Shown piece after piece: positions 9,087 through 51,903 of a stretch of DNA of 64,000 nt. The stretch is from Methanolobus sp. WCC4 (lineage in GTDB: Archaea > Halobacteriota > Methanosarcinia > Methanosarcinales > Methanosarcinaceae): assembly GCF_038022665.1 (NCBI RefSeq), contig NZ_CP150629.1:62001-126000 (forward strand), written 5' to 3'. Positions within the stretch are counted from its first letter, which is position 1. Each line of letters begins with the position of its first letter. The translations under genes and the position numbers were made by a program. A model generated the notes under the pieces. It was not told the DNA's origin, made no database searches, and saw nothing but the letters and a program-made list of their open reading frames with translations.

Positions 9087-9345
9087 GTGTAGTTGCATGC
9101 CTCTATCACTCCACCAACTTTGCCAACAATTCCCAAGATCAGACCCGACAAAATGCCTCCACAACTTTCTTATTCTATTTTTTCCATATACTGACATAGT
9201 AAGCGGTTAGGATTCACACTGGCTGGATAGAGCCCATCCTGGGACTTCATACTACTTTTATTCTTATTTAAGTCTTATATTAACATCCATAATTACATAT
9301 AGATTACTTTGTAACTATAAACAAACAAATTTCAGGTGCATAGTA

Positions 9346-9525
9346 TTGGATGTTAAAGAAATTATTCTGGTAATTGTAGTAATTCTGGCTGCTTTTGTCC
9401 TGTTGGATGCTTTTCTTGGCCTGATAGGAGCTTTTTATCATCTGGCTTTCAGCTTTGTGCATCTTATGGTTGTTTTTGTGGTGATCGTACTGGCAATCAT
9501 TACAGTTGTAAAATTACTGTTTTAG
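9346..9525 (+). CDS. Small two-helix membrane protein with TTG start
   Basis: This 59-aa ORF starts at TTG (9346), 7 nt after an AGGTG ribosome-binding site. Its product is almost wholly hydrophobic: a first helix, EIILVIVVILAAFVLLDAFL, a short turn with GLIGAFYHLAF, and a second helix, HLMVVFVVIVLAIITVVKLLF. The family is unknown. It lies between the virus-like remnants and the tatA-hydrogenase region and is transcribed toward the latter. Confidence 0.5.
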   Translation: MDVKEIILVIVVILAAFVLLDAFLGLIGAFYHLAFSFVHLMVVFVVIVLAIITVVKLLF

Positions 9526-9585
9526 AGAAACAAAACTGCAAATTTACCAGAAACCATATTTAACAATGTCAAATTTCAAAGTACA

Positions 9586-9754
9586 TACTGCAAGACCCGT
9601 AAACCATTAACATCGGAACCTGTAAGGGCTGTTAGCTTGGCGATAGCACCGGTGATGGGGGGACATCAGACCATAAACTATATTCAAGGAGGAAAATAAA
9701 TACATAAATGGTAAAGAGCTTCTCGCCTTGATAGAAGAGAATGTGAAGACTTGA
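9586..9754 (+). pseudogene. Decayed fragment related to the DUF3795 protein at 14755
   Basis: Pieces in different frames match the intact zinc-binding protein encoded at 14755-15096: YCKTRKP here against YCRTCKP there, and GTCKGC-stop-LGDSTG here against GSCKGCKLGYDTG there. A third piece, KELLALIEENVKT, ends at 9754. Frames are broken and no start is present, so this is a relic. Similarity was judged by eye over about 25 codons. Confidence 0.35.
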
Positions 9755-9822
9755 CCGGATTGAAAGCTAAACTACTCTCATAGGATTAGCAATTAAAATA
9801 ACGAACAAGGGAATGGTGGAAA

Positions 9823-10125
9823 ATGATAGGTGGACTGGGACCAAGCGAACTTCTAATCATATTTGCAGTACTGCTCTTACTCTTTGGTGCAAGCAAACTG
9901 CCTGAACTGGCACGTTCCATGGGAACTTCCATGGGCGAGTTCAAGAAAGCACAGAAAGAATCAGAACTATCATTGAAGGAGTTTGAGAACTCCATAAAAG
10001 ATGCAGAATCTGAGAGTGAAAAAGCATCCAGAATAGAGGAAACTGCCCTGAACCTTGGCATTGATACTAAGGATAAGAGCGAGGATGAACTCCTTGCTGA
10101 GATCAATGAAATGCTGAAAAAGTGA
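9823..10125 (+). CDS. tatA: Twin-arginine translocase subunit TatA/TatB-like
   Basis: The 100-aa protein begins with a short N-terminal transmembrane helix (PSELLIIFAVLLLLFGASKLPEL) containing the FG hinge, followed by an amphipathic helix (ARSMGTSMGEFKKAQ) and a charged cytoplasmic tail. This is the TatA family architecture. GGTGG precedes the ATG. It would form the pore that exports folded proteins with RR signal peptides. The next gene encodes a hydrogenase subunit with exactly such a signal, so it may be a dedicated TatA copy. No TatC is in the window. Confidence 0.9.
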   Translation: MIGGLGPSELLIIFAVLLLLFGASKLPELARSMGTSMGEFKKAQKESELSLKEFENSIKDAESESEKASRIEETALNLGIDTKDKSEDELLAEINEMLKK

Positions 10126-10143
10126 TCAACATACCCTTAGTAT

Positions 10144-10168
10144 CAGGAATATCCCCGGCATATTCCTG
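10144..10168. repeat. 9-bp stem inverted repeat between tatA and the hydrogenase
   Basis: CAGGAATAT (10144-10152) and ATATTCCTG (10160-10168) form a perfect stem with a 7-nt loop, 18 nt after the tatA stop codon. No T-run follows. It may be a transcript-end or processing hairpin, or an operator for the hydrogenase operon. Confidence 0.45.
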
Positions 10169-10289
10169 GCGAATACCAATGGCAGCTTTTCCTTAATTTG
10201 TTACCTCATATACTGTTCTCTGCCAGAATTTCTGGTTCAGACAAACATAATATACATGGGATCCAATTTATTATAGGGGTAATCAATTC

Positions 10290-11489
10290 GTGGGCGAATT
10301 AGAGAACACTGACTTTCTGAGTATGGACCGTCGAACGTTCCTCAAGGTAGTGGGTGCCATGGGAGCATCGACTTTCCTGGGACTACACCGTTCTGAGATA
10401 GTAAAAGCACTCGAACTATCAAATACAAGGGTCATATGGATACATGGAGCCGAATGTACCGGCTGTTCCGAATCCGTTCTGAATGGAAGGGACCCTGATA
10501 TTTTCCAGGCGATACAGAAACTAAGTGTTGATGTTGCCTACCATGAGATGCTGATCCAACAGCAGGGCATCTTTGTTGACGGTGAACTTGCATCCACATC
10601 CGAGCTGAATTCGGAGATAATGCTGGAGGAAGCTATCGAAGAAGGTGGCTACATACTTGTTGTCGAGGGTGCTATTGCCAACGGACCTGATGGCAGCGGT
10701 AAATACTGCATGTATGGTGATCATACTTTTAAGGAATTGTTCAGCAAAGCTGCAAGTAACGCAACCTTCATACTGGCCATAGGGATGTGTGCCACATACG
10801 GCGGTATAAATTCAGCGAACAGTAATATAGTCGATCTCACTGACTTCAGGGGAGTAGCGTTCCTTAGAAGGGACCCTTCAAAGGGAATGCTCACAGAGCT
10901 TGGTATTGACAGACCGGTTATAAATATAGCCGGATGTCCTGCTAATCCTGACTGGGTACTTCTGACACTTGCTGCCGTGATACTTGGAAAGATCGACATC
11001 AATGATCCAGATCCAATCCTGGATGAATTCAAGCGACCCCTTGTATTCTTCCCGGAAGACGTAACTCTGCACTGGAACTGCCCACGCAGAGGATATTATG
11101 ATATTGGACAATTCGACACTGAATTCTCAGGAGATGCATGTCTATGGAAGCTTGGTTGCAAAGGACCCTACACTCATTCAGATTGTGCTCTTCGAAAATG
11201 GAACGGTTCGGTGAACATGTGCACTCAGGCAGGTTCTCCATGTATTTCCTGCTGTGAACCCGGATTTTTCGATAATTCAACTCCTTTCTATAAAAATGCC
11301 CAAAGCGTCGCACCTTCTGGCGGTGAAACGGACAGATCGGTCACTTCCAATGAAAACAATGGGGCTGCCACCACAGGATCTGCAATTGGCCTGGGTGCCA
11401 CAGCAGGGGCTACGATAATCGGTTCTGCGGCTTATGCTGCCCGCAAGATCGCCAAAAATAATGATGATGAAAAGGAGATGGATCAATGA
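10290..11489 (+). CDS. [NiFe] hydrogenase small subunit, Tat-exported and membrane-anchored
   Basis: The 399-aa product has a twin-arginine signal (RRTFLKVVGAMG, residues about 15-26), the proximal-cluster motif ECTGCSES, later cysteines (NIAGCPANP, LWKLGCKGP, CALRKWN, CTQAGSPCISCCEPGF) for further FeS clusters, and a C-terminal transmembrane helix (GAIGLGATAGATIIGSAAYAA region). It therefore faces outside the cell, like VhtG/VhoG of Methanosarcina. The start is GTG at 10290 behind AGGGGTAA. It overlaps the large subunit by 4 nt (ATGA), indicating translational coupling. The family normally passes H2 electrons to a cytochrome b; none is encoded here. The gene symbol is left open because vht identity is not certain. 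Confidence 0.93.
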   Translation: MGELENTDFLSMDRRTFLKVVGAMGASTFLGLHRSEIVKALELSNTRVIWIHGAECTGCSESVLNGRDPDIFQAIQKLSVDVAYHEMLIQQQGIFVDGELASTSELNSEIMLEEAIEEGGYILVVEGAIANGPDGSGKYCMYGDHTFKELFSKAASNATFILAIGMCATYGGINSANSNIVDLTDFRGVAFLRRDPSKGMLTELGIDRPVINIAGCPANPDWVLLTLAAVILGKIDINDPDPILDEFKRPLVFFPEDVTLHWNCPRRGYYDIGQFDTEFSGDACLWKLGCKGPYTHSDCALRKWNGSVNMCTQAGSPCISCCEPGFFDNSTPFYKNAQSVAPSGGETDRSVTSNENNGAATTGSAIGLGATAGATIIGSAAYAARKIAKNNDDEKEMDQ

Positions 11490-13279
11490 CCAATGTCACA
11501 ATAGACCCATTGACACGTATTGAGGGTCATTTTCGTTTGTCCACTGAGGTAAATGAGAATGGGGTCATCACAGATGCACAGAGCTCAGGAATGCTCTTCA
11601 GAGGAATTGAGCGCATACTTGTGAACCGTGACCCGAGGGATGCAGCCCGTATCACGCAAAGGGTATGCGGTGTCTGCCCGACCGCTCATGCAATAACATC
11701 TGCAAATGCTCTGGAGGATCTTTTCGGAATTGCTGATCAGGTACCAAAGGATGCCCTTGTTACAAGGAATATTATGCAGTCCCTGAATATGATAGACAGC
11801 CATGCTACGCATACCTATGCACTCTGGCTGCCAGATCTGGTGAACCCTGCATACAGGGATGTCTTTGCAACTGCGGACAATATGGGAACTATGCTATGGA
11901 AGGAATTACTTCATCGTTTTGCCCCCTTAAGCTACAGGATAGACGGCATATCAATACCTCCGGGCCAGACATATGTGAATGCTATCAAGGAAAAGAGAAG
12001 ACTTCACGGATCTATAGCCCTCATTGCCGGAAAGATGCCACACCAGATGTCGACCATATTCGGAGGGGTCACCTATAAGCCGACGGTCGCAGATATTGGA
12101 AAACTCTCCTACTACTATTACCAGTTAATGGATTTTTTTGAGAGATATACGCTTGGTATGGACCACACCACATGGCTGGACAACACCTATAGGGCATCTT
12201 CACCCCAACGTGCGGTGGAATTCATGATAGAGCACCTTCAGGAGCTCACAGAGAGTTCAATAAGCTCCAACGACTTCTCATATTCTGCCGGGTGGGGCGA
12301 CACTGACCTGCTTGTTGTACTTGGTTCTGAGCTCATAGGCGAGGAGATCCTGGGCCTTCCTGTAAGTTTTAAACTTGACAGAACAGGAACCTACAGTGAT
12401 CCTGCGAATATAGGGTTCCTGTCCTATGGAGCATATTATGACGTGGAGAATGGAGATGGATATGATCCTCTGGAATTTGGTAAGAGCAGTTTCCTGAAAG
12501 CCGCTTTTATTACCGGTTCACTTGAACGTAAAACCTTCGACCATATGAAAGTGACTGAAGAAGTATCCCATTCATTCTATACAGGTGAAGGTGACCTTCA
12601 TCCCTTTGATGGGGACACAGAACCTGTGAGAAATGCTGATGAGATCGATTACCATGGTGACAGCCAGAGCAAGTACACGTGGATGAAGGCACCACGATAC
12701 GATGGTGTTCCATGTGAAGTAGGTCCCATTGCCCGCATGATAGCAATGCAAGAACCACTGACCACGGGCCTGATGAATACATTTTCAGATAATGGCTATT
12801 CTACTGTCAATACTTACATAAGGATGGTTGCAAGAGTGCAGGAGATGCTCATTCTTTTAGAGAGACTGATCCAATGGGTGACGTCCGACCTTGACCCGAG
12901 TGGACGATTCAGTGTTCCGATAGATATGAGCATGGCAAAGGATTCTCAGGGCGTCGGCCTCTGGGAAGGTGCCCGCGGTGCACTGGGTCACTGGATAAAG
13001 ACCGGTTCAGATTCAAAGGTCACAAAATACCAGATGGTTGTGCCTACCACATGGAATGCGTCCCCAAGGGACAGTAACGGAATACCCGGGCCCATAGAAC
13101 AGGCCCTTATAGGCACAAAGGTATCAGCGGCTGAAAATATGCTTGGGATCGACAACTCGAATCCCATAGGAATATTGCACACTTCAAGAGCATACGACCC
13201 ATGTATCGCATGTGCCGTGCATACTATTGACCTGAGACAGAAAGATGGCAAAGGCGAGCGAGTCTTCGATATCGTTTAA
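11486..13279 (+). CDS. [NiFe] hydrogenase large (catalytic) subunit
   Basis: The 597-aa protein has both nickel-binding motifs, RVCGVCPTAH near residue 61 and DPCIACAVH near the C-terminus, followed by an extension that the maturation protease would remove. It forms the H2-activating site and would be carried across the membrane with the small subunit, having no signal of its own. It is translationally coupled to the small subunit. Length is normal for group 1 uptake hydrogenases. No maturation protease or cytochrome b gene follows. Immediately convergent is a multihaem cytochrome c, which could be the electron partner. Confidence 0.95.
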   Translation: MTNVTIDPLTRIEGHFRLSTEVNENGVITDAQSSGMLFRGIERILVNRDPRDAARITQRVCGVCPTAHAITSANALEDLFGIADQVPKDALVTRNIMQSLNMIDSHATHTYALWLPDLVNPAYRDVFATADNMGTMLWKELLHRFAPLSYRIDGISIPPGQTYVNAIKEKRRLHGSIALIAGKMPHQMSTIFGGVTYKPTVADIGKLSYYYYQLMDFFERYTLGMDHTTWLDNTYRASSPQRAVEFMIEHLQELTESSISSNDFSYSAGWGDTDLLVVLGSELIGEEILGLPVSFKLDRTGTYSDPANIGFLSYGAYYDVENGDGYDPLEFGKSSFLKAAFITGSLERKTFDHMKVTEEVSHSFYTGEGDLHPFDGDTEPVRNADEIDYHGDSQSKYTWMKAPRYDGVPCEVGPIARMIAMQEPLTTGLMNTFSDNGYSTVNTYIRMVARVQEMLILLERLIQWVTSDLDPSGRFSVPIDMSMAKDSQGVGLWEGARGALGHWIKTGSDSKVTKYQMVVPTTWNASPRDSNGIPGPIEQALIGTKVSAAENMLGIDNSNPIGILHTSRAYDPCIACAVHTIDLRQKDGKGERVFDIV

Positions 13280-13314: not shown

Positions 13315-14541
13315 TTATTCCCTCCTCCTTCTCATGAACATCAGTGCCGAAATTGTTCCGGCCACAGCCAATATCGCTTCAAACCCTGGTTGTGCGGGTG
13401 TTGGCTGACGTTCTATTACTGAATTGAAAAGTATCCTGGAATTGTCCAGATATTCATAGGTCCTTTCCTTATTGTGTATCCCATAACTTCCATCCCCTTT
13501 TACCGCTTCCATATAGAATACGGCATTGTTGTAATCTGCCAGTACAGAATCATATTCGGACGTACCGTTGAACCTTTCCAGTGATTCGGTTGCGTTTGTT
13601 CTCAGAGCTTCAAGATTATCAAGTCTTTCAGCAACGATTCCCTGCTTTGCTTCAAGGACCGGTGTGAAGAATTCCTTATGACAATCATAGCAACCATTGG
13701 AAGAATCAGGACTGAACAACAGTTCCGGCTCAAAATCGAAGGTATGTCCCGTTATGGCAGCTTCCCCTGTAGTATCATTGAACTCACGGGTGGCCATATG
13801 ACAATCTGAGCAGCCTATGCTCACGGGATGAACGCCAGTATAATAGATGGAACCGTTATACATCTCCCAATTCGTATAGGACACTGAAATTGTCATACCA
13901 TCAGGTGATGCATCTTGCGAATTGTGGCAGTTCGCACACAGCAACACCTCGTCCTCTATCCGGCAACCTGCAGAGTGAGGGTCATGGCAGGCGACGCATG
14001 TTATACTCCATTCAGAAACATCAGATGCTTCAGGAACCTCAGCAAGGTTCAACCCGTAAACATCCTCATCGGCCAGATTTGGAATTGCACCGTCTGTGGA
14101 CTTGCATGACACACACGAATTATCCATTTCGAGAATGAACGGCTCTCCTATGTCAGCAGGTTCTGAATGGCTCATCGTATCAGTTATGTTGAAACCTTCT
14201 TTCCCGAACTCATCCCATTCCTCGATCACAGGATGACTGTCACCTCTGTGGCAGGTCCCACACACCTCAGCAGAGAGGCTCACTTCAGGCACATTACCAA
14301 AAGGACTACCAATGTGAACATCATAGCCCCCTGCTGGTGGAGCATGGCACGCCTCACATGTGATAGGCTCAATTGTTGTTTCTGCTTCTGACCCTGCATG
14401 TACAGATGCATTCCATATATCATACGTACCGGAATGACAGCTCTTACATTCCTCAGGTTGCCCTGCAACGGATATCATAGTTAAAATGAAAACCATACCC
14501 AGTGCCAAATAAGCATATTTCGTCAAATAACTCCCCCACAT
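13315..14541 (-). CDS. Octahaem c-type cytochrome with one CXXCK site and PGF-type C-terminal anchor
   Basis: The 408-aa product has an N-terminal signal sequence and eight haem-binding motifs in order: CKSCH, CEACH, CGTCH, CVSCK, CVACH, CANCH, CSDCH and CYDCH. The fourth has lysine instead of histidine, as at the catalytic haem of pentahaem NrfA and of octahaem nitrite reductases. A helical region follows, then a C-terminal PGF tripeptide with a hydrophobic helix and RRRRE, a PGF-CTERM sorting signal that tethers it to the outer face. It may be a nitrite/hydroxylamine reductase or an electron carrier. It is convergent with the hydrogenase, 35 nt apart. The enzymatic role is inference. Confidence 0.9.
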   Translation of the reverse strand: MWGSYLTKYAYLALGMVFILTMISVAGQPEECKSCHSGTYDIWNASVHAGSEAETTIEPITCEACHAPPAGGYDVHIGSPFGNVPEVSLSAEVCGTCHRGDSHPVIEEWDEFGKEGFNITDTMSHSEPADIGEPFILEMDNSCVSCKSTDGAIPNLADEDVYGLNLAEVPEASDVSEWSITCVACHDPHSAGCRIEDEVLLCANCHNSQDASPDGMTISVSYTNWEMYNGSIYYTGVHPVSIGCSDCHMATREFNDTTGEAAITGHTFDFEPELLFSPDSSNGCYDCHKEFFTPVLEAKQGIVAERLDNLEALRTNATESLERFNGTSEYDSVLADYNNAVFYMEAVKGDGSYGIHNKERTYEYLDNSRILFNSVIERQPTPAQPGFEAILAVAGTISALMFMRRRRE

Positions 14542-50400: not shown

Positions 50401-50458
50401 AGGTCCTATGGGCTCAGAAGGTGACATGGGAGGAGATATGGAGGACGGATATATATGA
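44408..50458 (+). CDS. Giant secreted surface protein, no C-terminal anchor
   Basis: The 2016-aa product has a signal sequence (FILAILFLVMMLLITSIGSAAS) and many Ig/macroglobulin-like beta modules with 'DSTGVN'-type insert sequences. No C-terminal PGF motif or membrane helix is present; it ends in a Met/Asp/Glu-rich tail (MDMFEDEGPMGSEGDMGG). A second ATG at 44420 with GGATGTGG before it may be the real start. It overlaps the next gene by 4 nt, which encodes a PGF-anchored protein, so the two are probably a surface complex (inference). The large size suggests a cell-envelope scaffold. Confidence 0.85.
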   Translation: MWNIMNDTGKYFTKNGRTFILAILFLVMMLLITSIGSAASIQKFSIDSKVYASGEAITVSGEILNGNSSGEVEITIWPEGDELTDISNQSANKTIYASDGTFSTTINAPVDAEEYTIVAEDVESGVYSPYLYLTVVGQNDPQTIKILFTEGEVLSVSLSDAHGIAGSLNNSKTGGNLVLGNTTYYFLVSDEDVAYVDDDPTMELGSDSNGISVIGNLVQGSKVKLNGNAYRIIHINNDTDVTLARTVTPSFTGGESVNVTVLALNSSSSPVGAAIELEYFKDDGTEISTTNITTDSTGVNTSSISIASSAGTYHLVADDIGHISFVVNTMDLFGDILSTEYTPKHTFAHGEVMVPVVYAKNLSSGTPLADADITATITSKNNDSYSNTLTLEYDSNISAYITSYTIPMSAEIDTYYVEYEATLDNEVQKAYTSYNIKAYDLFLKVVSKERGEGDGFAPGEEGFLVIAGTNLSNGQPIDLNELTSFNISKYSMNITDSDGDDVTSSWSIMNASTFYTYASVPTDIQEEVKQMLGEDFAVINFTTPSSNGIYDVHAQVELESEWTSVWESIIVQDVFIHGEPVNKMGWFSPTVAPDAAARIMIMAFDPSTGSEITDINDAGLVEVWSESAQDVVTEYMEDPVVETIDVPFMGTQTVLKFNVTDNNLGFHYVRFWANVTVDGTPQIVMGDAWFDEKLYSIRAKPAFDDNSSMFKVFGSEDDIELSVHVEDLSGNDVSSASIKVESVRYGMTGETVPVEEQTSSVTTDSSGDATLTITPENSLKSGFYSVRVKMTTQDGTIDYGNGWFEVSNFIFYPYSTSWEVGLNQPVNFSLNAFDSSFGDKEVNVTLTKIISMGDWDMMSPPTIYSTTEVDIGSINGTGYYEYPGLADGGNYEFVFEATDGTSTEVGRAWVHATAFVAWVDSGWEYEFPTNGFINVTVKASDDGMWGSSAHNVSNVTVEKVMQEGMWMTSYKTKSEMASITTTEAGANPNEMDISINTSGWGQGGYMMTLKVTDDTGNEVYTDFWFKLELASVSVTNPMMLTVNAGEYYTAGTSINASSDINANQDNLASMGNISAGKISGPIIGEDWITPISESWDMGIDYHDHDQVPYFSLVAVDSVRNTVYIEFENRTDDFNIAANLSDSTSTQVFNASVGDNFTDYTGRTWNITDIATDGTIELEGVNTLKNGLILNDSIMAMSQSGKFLITSFRDEEWQNIDLDGDDNYFDDNYIVLMADSITTGRYDKVLVSNSSNFSAGYIDASAGEAIEFGGAPIYLLSNKYQSNAYNLEFSTYSEGWNGMHMGTFQNGSTVKIPFLVESPSGEALTGKLVTIDYLIDESKQRQTLSGINATTDDNGLAVVEINTSEAGIPTGSWMIHYNVTLGSEYAVANEEMFWELTRFELRNFVVSGALGTPGEIDLVKLYDDNPDDGLPGNDMLLAYGDEIEFQRGISAHYYGVDDTYALNWPFNNWYYNSSTQAFNYSDDWGNTMQPGSVGVGATINSSGSRMPIDYTVDSVNNIGDTIVLNLNEPNSFYGDMWNFTLSASDGTTATIDMSYVGWPWTVAGSDPWSSPMQENFNINQSFWIGGFDFEVTTINTDSVILTLRSPLITSSLGPVSALTDDDTSNGELASYSGAATEVTFGGQDYYLFGYNDQAGTMHELLDNSYLETKDRVLVVNASNTSQTNTYRIGETIDEFGGYYVASVANWGGRFILLNSSVTQVYPIPGWSSDEPVFYAGKFSDEDVGVDMATAGGGFDDAELPGLGEITSDDRYHILLFDGLMNGVSFPTQAKYDDDPDLTNLRDWENYMNTSSIYDMYDIESGSNDAFIWSEMGPVQSNMTEGEAYDIGTGNMDNWPMSFPSINIDDASDTATLKTFVSAMDVDVNETVTIYVTAKDFDGTPVNGTATLQSLKMSFGGTFTSGPAEDIPVTWDMSSAMINTTLVNGEGTLEIAPSDLSEIEYDFGEFTAFVDIEKDSGGVETLKMNFFRFNEDMMDMFEDEGPMGSEGDMGGDMEDGYI

Positions 50459-51903
50459 GAAAAATAGCCATTCTTTTACTGGCTATGCTGATCGCAGTGG
50501 GAACCATTCCTGCTGCCTCGGCTGTTGCCACCCTTACAGTAGGGAGCATTAGCTACGATAATACAATTGTAAAGGACGAGAGTATAACAGTGACATCCAG
50601 CATCACCGCAGCAAGTGTCTCAGGCACCCTGACTGTGGATGCGACACTGACAGATAACTCAGGAATGTTCTCGGTCCCAAGCCCGACACAGCAGGTGCAG
50701 TTCACTTCAGACGGGACGAAATCCGTTTCCTGGACCGTGACCGCTACTTCAACAGGTACTAACTCCGCACCTTTCACGATATCAGCTTCAGGAGATGACG
50801 GAAGCAGTACAGCAAAGACCGCATCCTCTGCACTGACCGTGAAGGACAGGCCTGTGCTGACCGTTTCTTCAAGTACGGACGTCTCATCGGTTTCTGCAGG
50901 TGACAATGTCGTCATCAGCTACCTTGTTTCCAACAGTGCCTCTGCAGGTGCTGCAGATGCCACCAACGTGAAAGTGGCACTTTCACTACCAGGCGGATGG
51001 AGCCTTACCAGTGGAAGCACGCCATATACCCTTGGAACCATTTCACCGGCAGCATCAAGTGCAGGATCGTGGACCGTAACGGCAGACAGTCCATCTTCAT
51101 CCAATACCTTTGAGCTTACCGTTACATCCACCGTACCCGGAGGAAGTGTAACCACAAGTTCCACAGTAACAGGTCCGTCTTCAAGCTCCAGCTCCAGTTC
51201 AAGCTCCGGCGGTGGCGGTGGCGGAGGAGGAGGTGGCGGTGCCTCCGGTGAAGAGTATGAGAATATAGCCCTGAAGAACGTTGAAAAGGTCTATGTCCAG
51301 AAAGATGTAAGGTCAGAGTATTATTTCTCAGATGAGGAGAACCCTATCAGCAAGATCGGATTCATGCCTGTTGTAAATGCAGGCTACACCGATGTGACTG
51401 TAGAGGTGCTTCATGATACATCCGCACTTGTAGATTCCAAAGCGAATGGGAAGGTATACAGGAACATGAACATCTGGGTCGGAAAAGGTGGATGGGCAAG
51501 CTCTGAGACCATATCCGATCCGAAGATATCCTTCAGTGTGGAGAGGTCATGGCTCAATGGGAATGGCATCGACCCCGCCAACATCAGGTTGATGAGATAC
51601 ACCACCCAGTGGGATGAACTCGACACCACACAGACCGATGAGGATGAAGAGTATGTACACTTCACAGCCAGTACACCCGGTTTCTCACCGTTTGCAATAA
51701 TAGCAGTAGGAGATGACTCTTCCGGAGTTGACTATGAAAACACCGGATCAGAGGAAACTGTGAGTGAAGTGGAAGAAGCATCTGATTCTGAGATCGAAGA
51801 TGAAGAGAGTTCATCAAAAGGAATACCAGGATTCGAAGCTCTGGTGCTTGTTGCAATGCTGGGAATGGTCTGTATCTTCAGCAGAAGGAAGGACAGGAAC
51901 TGA
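50455..51903 (+). CDS. PGF-anchored surface protein with PGF-pre-PGF domain
   Basis: The 482-aa protein has a signal peptide, two Ig-like repeats (TLTVGSISYDNTIV, TVSSSTDVSSVSAGD), a Ser then Gly linker (about residues 240-265), a PGF-pre-PGF domain (NVEKVYVQKDVRSEYYFSDE) and a C-terminal PGF-helix-Arg signal (PGFEALVLVAMLGM, RRKDRN). It is translationally coupled to the giant surface gene. The anchored protein may hold the unanchored one on the cell wall. Confidence 0.9.
   Translation: MRKIAILLLAMLIAVGTIPAASAVATLTVGSISYDNTIVKDESITVTSSITAASVSGTLTVDATLTDNSGMFSVPSPTQQVQFTSDGTKSVSWTVTATSTGTNSAPFTISASGDDGSSTAKTASSALTVKDRPVLTVSSSTDVSSVSAGDNVVISYLVSNSASAGAADATNVKVALSLPGGWSLTSGSTPYTLGTISPAASSAGSWTVTADSPSSSNTFELTVTSTVPGGSVTTSSTVTGPSSSSSSSSSSGGGGGGGGGGGASGEEYENIALKNVEKVYVQKDVRSEYYFSDEENPISKIGFMPVVNAGYTDVTVEVLHDTSALVDSKANGKVYRNMNIWVGKGGWASSETISDPKISFSVERSWLNGNGIDPANIRLMRYTTQWDELDTTQTDEDEEYVHFTASTPGFSPFAIIAVGDDSSGVDYENTGSEETVSEVEEASDSEIEDEESSSKGIPGFEALVLVAMLGMVCIFSRRKDRN

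Follow-up and report, generated by a model that had tools for sequence, protein, structure and literature searches.

A Predicted Octahaem Surface Cytochrome with a Lysine in Its Fourth Haem Motif

The window analysed here, a stretch of 64,000 nucleotides from contig NZ_CP150629.1 of Methanolobus sp. WCC4, carries on its reverse strand the gene of a multihaem c cytochrome, hereafter P0001. The features of the gene and its product, with the evidence for each in parentheses, are the following:

13315..14541 (-), open reading frame of the octahaem surface cytochrome P0001, 408 aa (ORF list)
14467..14535 (-), hydrophobic N-terminal helix, residues 3–25, signal peptide or anchor (AF2 helix and sequence)
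14434..14448 (-), haem motif 1, CKSCH, equivalent to OcwA haem 1 (sequence and profile alignment)
14374..14397 (-), site of a deletion of about 30 residues that removed the haem-2 segment, residues 49–56, AGSEAETT (alignment with nonahaem sisters)
14344..14358 (-), haem motif 2, CEACH, equivalent to OcwA haem 3 (sequence and profile alignment)
14248..14262 (-), haem motif 3, CGTCH, equivalent to OcwA haem 4 (sequence and profile alignment)
14173..14175 (-), M123, at the position of the catalytic Arg of NrfA/ONR (RGH), no Arg (alignment)
14101..14115 (-), haem motif 4, CVSCK, residues 143–147, followed by STD (alignment with NrfA haem 1 and ONR haem 4)
13984..13998 (-), haem motif 5, CVACH, followed by DPH (sequence and profile alignment)
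13924..13938 (-), haem motif 6, CANCH (sequence and profile alignment)
13915..13917 (-), Q209, at the position of the catalytic Tyr of NrfA/ONR (CxQCHVEY), no Tyr (alignment)
13876..13878 (-), Y222, at the position of the catalytic His of NrfA and of OcwA His381 (alignment)
13798..13812 (-), haem motif 7, CSDCH, followed by M (sequence and profile alignment)
13678..13692 (-), haem motif 8, CYDCH (sequence and profile alignment)
13411..13668 (-), C-terminal three-helix bundle of the NrfA/OcwA superfamily, residues 292–377 (AF2, block pLDDT mostly 90–98)
13324..13392 (-), predicted PGF-CTERM archaeosortase anchor, residues 384–406 (PF18204 above cut-off and ArtA in the genome)

The 408-residue translation contains the eight motifs in the order listed, from CKSCH to CYDCH, and bears out the initial annotation, which had described eight haem motifs with a lysine in the fourth alone. 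The C-terminus combines a PGF sequence, a hydrophobic stretch and a basic tail, and archaeosortase A, ArtA, was identified in the genome (E 6.9e-79, 265 bits). The Pfam model PF18204 scores 25.0 bits against a cut-off of 18.8, and the stricter TIGR04126 model 16.7, under its cut-off of 24.5. From this anchor and the presence of ArtA, P0001 is predicted to lie at the cell surface. The gene evolves under constraint, since dN/dS is 0.24 in the comparison with Methanolobus profundi and 0.12–0.14 with the next species. A second protein of the window (50455–51903, ORF list only) ends in a PGF-CTERM-like anchor, GIPGFEALVLVAMLGMVCIFSRRK.

Relationship to OcwA and Other Multihaem Cytochromes

In profile searches against PDB sequences, the best match was OcwA of Thermincola potens (6i5b, 6e-67), followed by OmhA, the undecahaem S-layer cytochrome of Carboxydothermus ferrireducens (6qvm, 4e-55), octahaem nitrite reductases (ONRs; 2e-26 for 8rv0 and 4e-21) and NrfA (2j7a, 1e-19). 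Structure prediction and comparison with NrfA and ONR, the check proposed in the initial annotation, placed the predicted fold in their superfamily. With the AF2 model used (pLDDT 76.6, pTM 0.79), which superseded a weaker one made from 34 sequences (pLDDT 68.7, pTM 0.64), strong Foldseek matches (E up to 0.001) were limited to OcwA, OmhA, ONR and NrfA; by E-value the leading match was OcwA (4e-8), by TM-score 8rv0, the ONR from Trichlorobacter ammonificans (0.64). Pfam PF02335 matches residues 224–367 above cut-off, and the C-terminal three-helix bundle is typical of the NrfA/HAO/OcwA superfamily.

Homology to OcwA extends over the full length of P0001, as judged by profile, Foldseek and tree, and the two proteins share motif order, the three-helix bundle and a surface location, predicted in the case of P0001, in addition to the best E-values in both searches. 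They differ in that OcwA has CxxCH at its haem 5 whereas the archaeal family has CxxCK, and in that P0001 has neither the beta domain nor haem 2 of OcwA, carries a PGF-CTERM anchor and has Tyr222 in place of His381. OmhA resembles P0001 as a surface cytochrome for extracellular electron transfer, but it has eleven haems, with CxxCH everywhere in the aligned part.

In a tree from which the motif region was left out, the archaeal proteins form one clade (100/100) among OcwA-like bacterial proteins, and NrfA and ONR form a separate branch (100/100). Placement among the OcwA-like proteins is weak in this tree, two alternatives (p-AU 0.25 and 0.26) not being rejected; one of these, at p-AU 0.25, is a single origin of CxxCK shared with NrfA and ONR. 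Inclusion of the motif columns gives a branch (support 80) that has every CxxCH OcwA-like row on the same side. The closest relatives of P0001 are OcwA-type nonahaem surface cytochromes. Two published surveys touch on such proteins: a 2021 tree of OmhA/OcwA relatives has methanogen proteins within a cluster with 9–16 haems (PMC7829351), and a 2015 survey sorts archaeal multihaem cytochromes into 34 clusters, one of which models on ONR without sequence similarity (PMC4429474).

Conservation of the CxxCK Motif

Lys147 is a lysine in all 27 aligned orthologues, which come from five genera of Methanosarcinaceae and include those of Methanolobus profundi and Methanococcoides vulcani, and the surrounding block is kept as CxxCK[SA]T[DE]G. 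The motif also occurs in a distant relative from another family (L151, CASCKTTDG). Given the lysine in 27/27 orthologues and in this distant relative, CxxCK at motif 4 is not a chance substitution. A paralogue, L097, also keeps the lysine. No relatives of P0001 were found in the plasmid records searched.

In the bacterial nine-haem relatives in which the equivalent motif could be identified, it is CxxCH (e.g., CVRCHVAQ) in all but one. The exception, a Chloroflexi nine-haem protein (L019, 317–1843) whose gene adjoins a second octahaem gene, has CMTCKAPA at the equivalent haem and is possibly a bacterial OcwA-type protein with CxxCK; its branch in the tree is long. In the open-licence literature, neither an OcwA-type protein nor a methanogen was found described as having a CxxCK haem, and the search yielded no experimental data on any member of the archaeal CxxCK family.

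Haem 4 and Its Distal Side

Motif 4 aligns with haem 4 of ONR and haem 1 of NrfA, and so occupies the position of the catalytic lysine haem, as first proposed from the sequence. The residues that follow the lysine are alike too: P0001 has CVSCKSTD, two NrfA proteins from a Bacteroidetes/Ignavibacteriales-type genome (L157, L158) have CWSCKSTD, and the ONR of Geomonas (L183) has CMQCKTSD. Pentahaem NrfA matches the C-terminal five haems of P0001, with CxxCK as the first haem of this core, where the lysine would be the proximal ligand; P0001 differs in having three additional N-terminal haems, in not keeping the catalytic triad and in lacking the insert between NrfA haems 3 and 4. OcwA-type proteins have CxxCH at the NrfA-equivalent haem, and the archaeal orthologues, with CxxCK in 27/27, are hence a variant of that type.

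A count of conserved histidines bears on the coordination of this haem. In the octahaem forms, seven CxxCH motifs are accompanied by exactly seven other conserved His (14/14 sequences), and in the nonahaem forms eight CxxCH motifs by eight. The eighth His of the nonahaem proteins lies within DEHHPxIEEW, which matches HH281/282 of OcwA in our own mapping from the alignment; in OcwA these residues sit above the open haem 2 without ligating it (PMC6703420), so that no His is left for the lysine haem in the nonahaem forms. Nonahaem archaeal orthologues resemble OcwA in the His pair over its open haems. EIHHPNWEM in L076 aligns with OcwA EVHHPHKEM, whose HH380/381 overlies haem 5, the NrfA-equivalent haem, which is five-coordinate with a His as its proximal ligand (PMC6703420). 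Because the conserved His suffice for one distal ligand per CxxCH haem only, haem 4 of P0001 likely has an open distal site, and we infer that it would be five-coordinate and high-spin.

Most of the residues that surround the catalytic haem in nitrite reductases have not been retained. The definition of ONR comprises, besides seven CxxCH motifs and one CxxCK, an active-site Tyr, Arg and Cys (PMC5433712). P0001 has the motifs, with CxxCK as the fourth, and it lacks these residues: Met123 and Gln209 replace Arg and Tyr, and there is no VEYNC segment. None of the second-sphere Arg, Tyr and His of NrfA is found in P0001, where Tyr222 takes the place of His; this His is present in 21 of the 27 orthologues, Tyr in the other six, and Gly in the paralogues L098/L099, which have no CxxCK haem. 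Residue 222 thus comes and goes with haem 4, a pattern that a residue facing this haem should show. To judge from these alignments, P0001 would combine the proximal side of a nitrite reductase with a distal side of OcwA type.

The same residue could be read otherwise. If P0001 were purely an electron conduit, haem 4 would be six-coordinate, by Lys/Tyr in P0001 and Lys/His in its sisters, and the lysine would only tune its potential. Tyr222 could in principle be a ligand of haem 4: position 222 holds nothing but His or Tyr, either of which can be a ligand, and it is lost with the haem; the surface anchor and the many haems would suit a conduit, and conduits of MmcA type are known in the same archaeal family (PMC11024163). 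However, neither NrfA nor OcwA uses the aligned residue as a ligand (PMC12285233, PMC6703420), the exchange of His and Tyr among close relatives fits a residue of the pocket better than an axial ligand, and the lysine is invariant where CxxCH would suffice. We consider a pure conduit unlikely, and a haem 4 open on its distal side is the reading retained below.

Loss of Haem 2 and the Octahaem Count

Nine haems are found in most close orthologues from Methanolobus and in those of the genera g8 and g11, and P0001 and its M. profundi orthologue are nested within this nonahaem clade (99/96 and 100/97). At the deletion site, where L072 reads HAESLKAAGGSVLNIEECTECHLESSIKETWGREDIETTIEPIT, P0001 reads HAGSEAETTIEPIT; the loss of haem 2 is clean, HAES..CTECH..ETTIEP having become HAGSEAETTIEP in both P0001 and the M. 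profundi protein. Across the tree, haem 2 switched between present and absent at least four times, against a single loss of the lysine haem. In the proposal of the OcwA authors, nonahaem ancestors gave rise to octahaem enzymes by losing haem 2 (HAO) or haem 5 (MccA) (PMC6703420), and both losses are present in this one archaeal family, that of haem 2 in P0001 and that of the lysine haem in L098/L099.

The latter loss was seen in Methanolobus paralogues (L098, L099, L153, L155, L156), in which the entire CxxCK haem segment is deleted and an additional motif is found near the C-terminal end; with OcwA haem 5 gone, they exemplify the MccA-like result. A decaying copy of the gene was seen in genome G076 (L081), with TAG in place of a conserved Trp, the first Cys of CxxCK changed to TGA and the second to Phe.

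The octahaem count that P0001 shares with ONR is accordingly a recent parallel and not an inheritance, because P0001 is nested among nonahaem sisters. This bears on the initial annotation, which had read P0001 as a small, surface-anchored ONR. A genuine ONR, that is, a six-electron nitrite-to-ammonia enzyme of reduced size tethered to the surface of a methanogen, would account for the eight motifs in the order of the ONR haems with CxxCK as the fourth, for the CK[ST]xD context, which is that of ONR (TvNiR, Geobacter, Trichlorobacter) and in its CKSTD form that of NrfA, and for the TM-score to 8rv0. Against it, P0001 has neither the catalytic Arg nor the catalytic Tyr and carries Tyr222 in place of His, the long NrfA/ONR insert between haems 6 and 7 (ONR numbering) is deleted, and in NrfA mutation of any one of Arg, His or Tyr strongly slows the first steps of nitrite reduction (PMC12498419). 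Moreover, the tree test rejects a clade shared with ONR (p-AU 0.0014), nine haems are present in sister orthologues, and identity to ONR in the structural alignment is about 15%, below the 40% that delimits the ONR clade. P0001 is also about 100 residues shorter than ONR, and the remark that 408 residues are few for that family was well founded. ONRs are hexamers with a calcium site that reduce nitrite to ammonia at high rate. Membership of P0001 in this group was rejected on the catalytic residues and the tree, and we regard an ONR function as very unlikely; the relationship to OcwA is the one followed here.

In-Frame TAG Codons in Relatives

An in-frame TAG occurs at one aligned position in three orthologues of genus g11 (L088, L089, L093) and three Methanolobus paralogues (L097, L099, L154), 11 residues before the OcwA-haem-3 motif and about 15 after haem 2. 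The reading frame is intact beyond it in five of the six, L154 being apparently truncated further on, and other paralogues have Met at this position. Since pyrrolysyl-tRNA synthetase is encoded in every genome tested, these codons are candidate sites of pyrrolysine in multihaem cytochromes, a combination for which no paper was found in the open-licence literature.

Attachment of Haem to the CxxCK Motif

CxxCK requires a special lyase in Escherichia coli and W. succinogenes, and S. oneidensis matures CxxCK NrfA without NrfEFG, apparently by the general CcmF (PMC12285233). No dedicated NrfE-like CxxCK haem lyase was found in the Methanolobus genomes searched, which encode at most two PF01578 proteins, one of CcmC size and one short and CcmF-like, whether or not the gene is present; the general archaeal machinery would therefore have to serve CxxCK. 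This small complement could mean that archaeal Ccm is unable to process the motif, which would make P0001 a heptahaem protein with a relic lysine, but the CxxCKxT block is kept between species whose synonymous sites are near saturation and haem loss in L098/L099 removed the whole segment, which argues that the motif is under selection, so that we find a haem-free motif 4 most improbable and presume that haem is attached there.

Genomic Surroundings and Possible Partners

Near TatA (9823–10125), the window also encodes the small and large subunits of a Tat-exported [NiFe] hydrogenase (10290–13279); no cytochrome b subunit gene was seen beside them, and a second copy of the large subunit is found elsewhere in the genome. 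P0001 could be imagined as the electron acceptor or donor of this hydrogenase, given that the two are convergent neighbours, 35 bases apart, both in the window and in M. profundi, and that the hydrogenase has a Tat-like signal and no cytochrome b subunit alongside; however, the adjacency is confined to these two among the loci compared, and G025, G030, G033, G043 and G046 have the cytochrome without such a hydrogenase. With the neighbourhood not conserved, a functional pairing was rejected, and we give it hardly any credence.

The loci compared showed nothing that would tie the gene to nitrogen metabolism, and the neighbours vary between genera; in genus g8 they include succinate dehydrogenase/fumarate reductase-like and fumarase-like genes. 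The genome of P0001 further carries genes for Rnf and an accompanying MmcA-like multihaem protein. Two octahaem PGF-anchored cytochromes lie near each other in it (L126, 14361–15683 on the forward and 9323–10696 on the reverse strand), one of them OTR-like and the other like the N-terminal half of OcwA. Rnf/MmcA-like, OTR-like and other surface octahaem cytochromes are plausible partners of P0001. OTR and MmcA of Methanosarcinales are multihaem c cytochromes of the same organisms, and OTR also has a lysine-ligated haem, its lysine lying outside the motif and serving haem 2. The OTR-like protein of this genome differs in matching P0001 weakly (E 0.003, 24% identity).

Proposed Function and Implications

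P0001 is probably an OcwA-like oxidoreductase, anchored to the cell surface by archaeosortase and equipped with a lysine haem of NrfA style, and it may be capable of slow reduction of small ligands. We infer the following route of electrons and possible catalysis. Electrons would come from the membrane, through methanophenazine, Rnf/MmcA or another surface cytochrome, and seven bis-His haems would form an electron wire, from which they would pass at the surface to acceptors or partners outside the cell, or they would travel inward along the same path. Haem 4, at the position of the NrfA/ONR catalytic haem and with the same proximal lysine, would have a simpler distal pocket, with only the His or Tyr at 222. 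Nitrite, hydroxylamine or NO may bind there and be slowly reduced, as nitrite and hydroxylamine are by OcwA, which reduces nitrite with a kcat of 1 per min and both reduces and oxidises hydroxylamine (PMC6703420). Such chemistry at haem 4 would be a detoxifying side activity and not nitrite respiration; respiration of nitrite via P0001 is unlikely, and detoxification or another substrate is more plausible.

A wider scenario, offered tentatively and in our view somewhat doubtful as a whole, is that Methanosarcinaceae and at least one distant archaeon possess nonahaem OcwA-type surface reductases with an NrfA-style catalytic lysine haem, from which both octahaem plans were independently derived, one by loss of haem 2 (ONR/HAO-like, P0001) and the other by loss of the lysine haem (MccA-like, L098/L099), and that the lysine haem serves methanogens as a functional active site at their surface, its substrate being a nitrogen oxide or some other small molecule.

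The presence of losses of haem 2 and of haem 5 within one archaeal lineage makes the octahaem-origin idea of the OcwA authors testable with close relatives. If haem 4 is truly lysine-ligated and open, obligate methanogens would expose at the cell surface a kind of active site that is otherwise known from enzymes converting nitrite to ammonia, which would bear on their encounters with nitrite, NO and hydroxylamine and on their exchange of electrons with minerals and partners.
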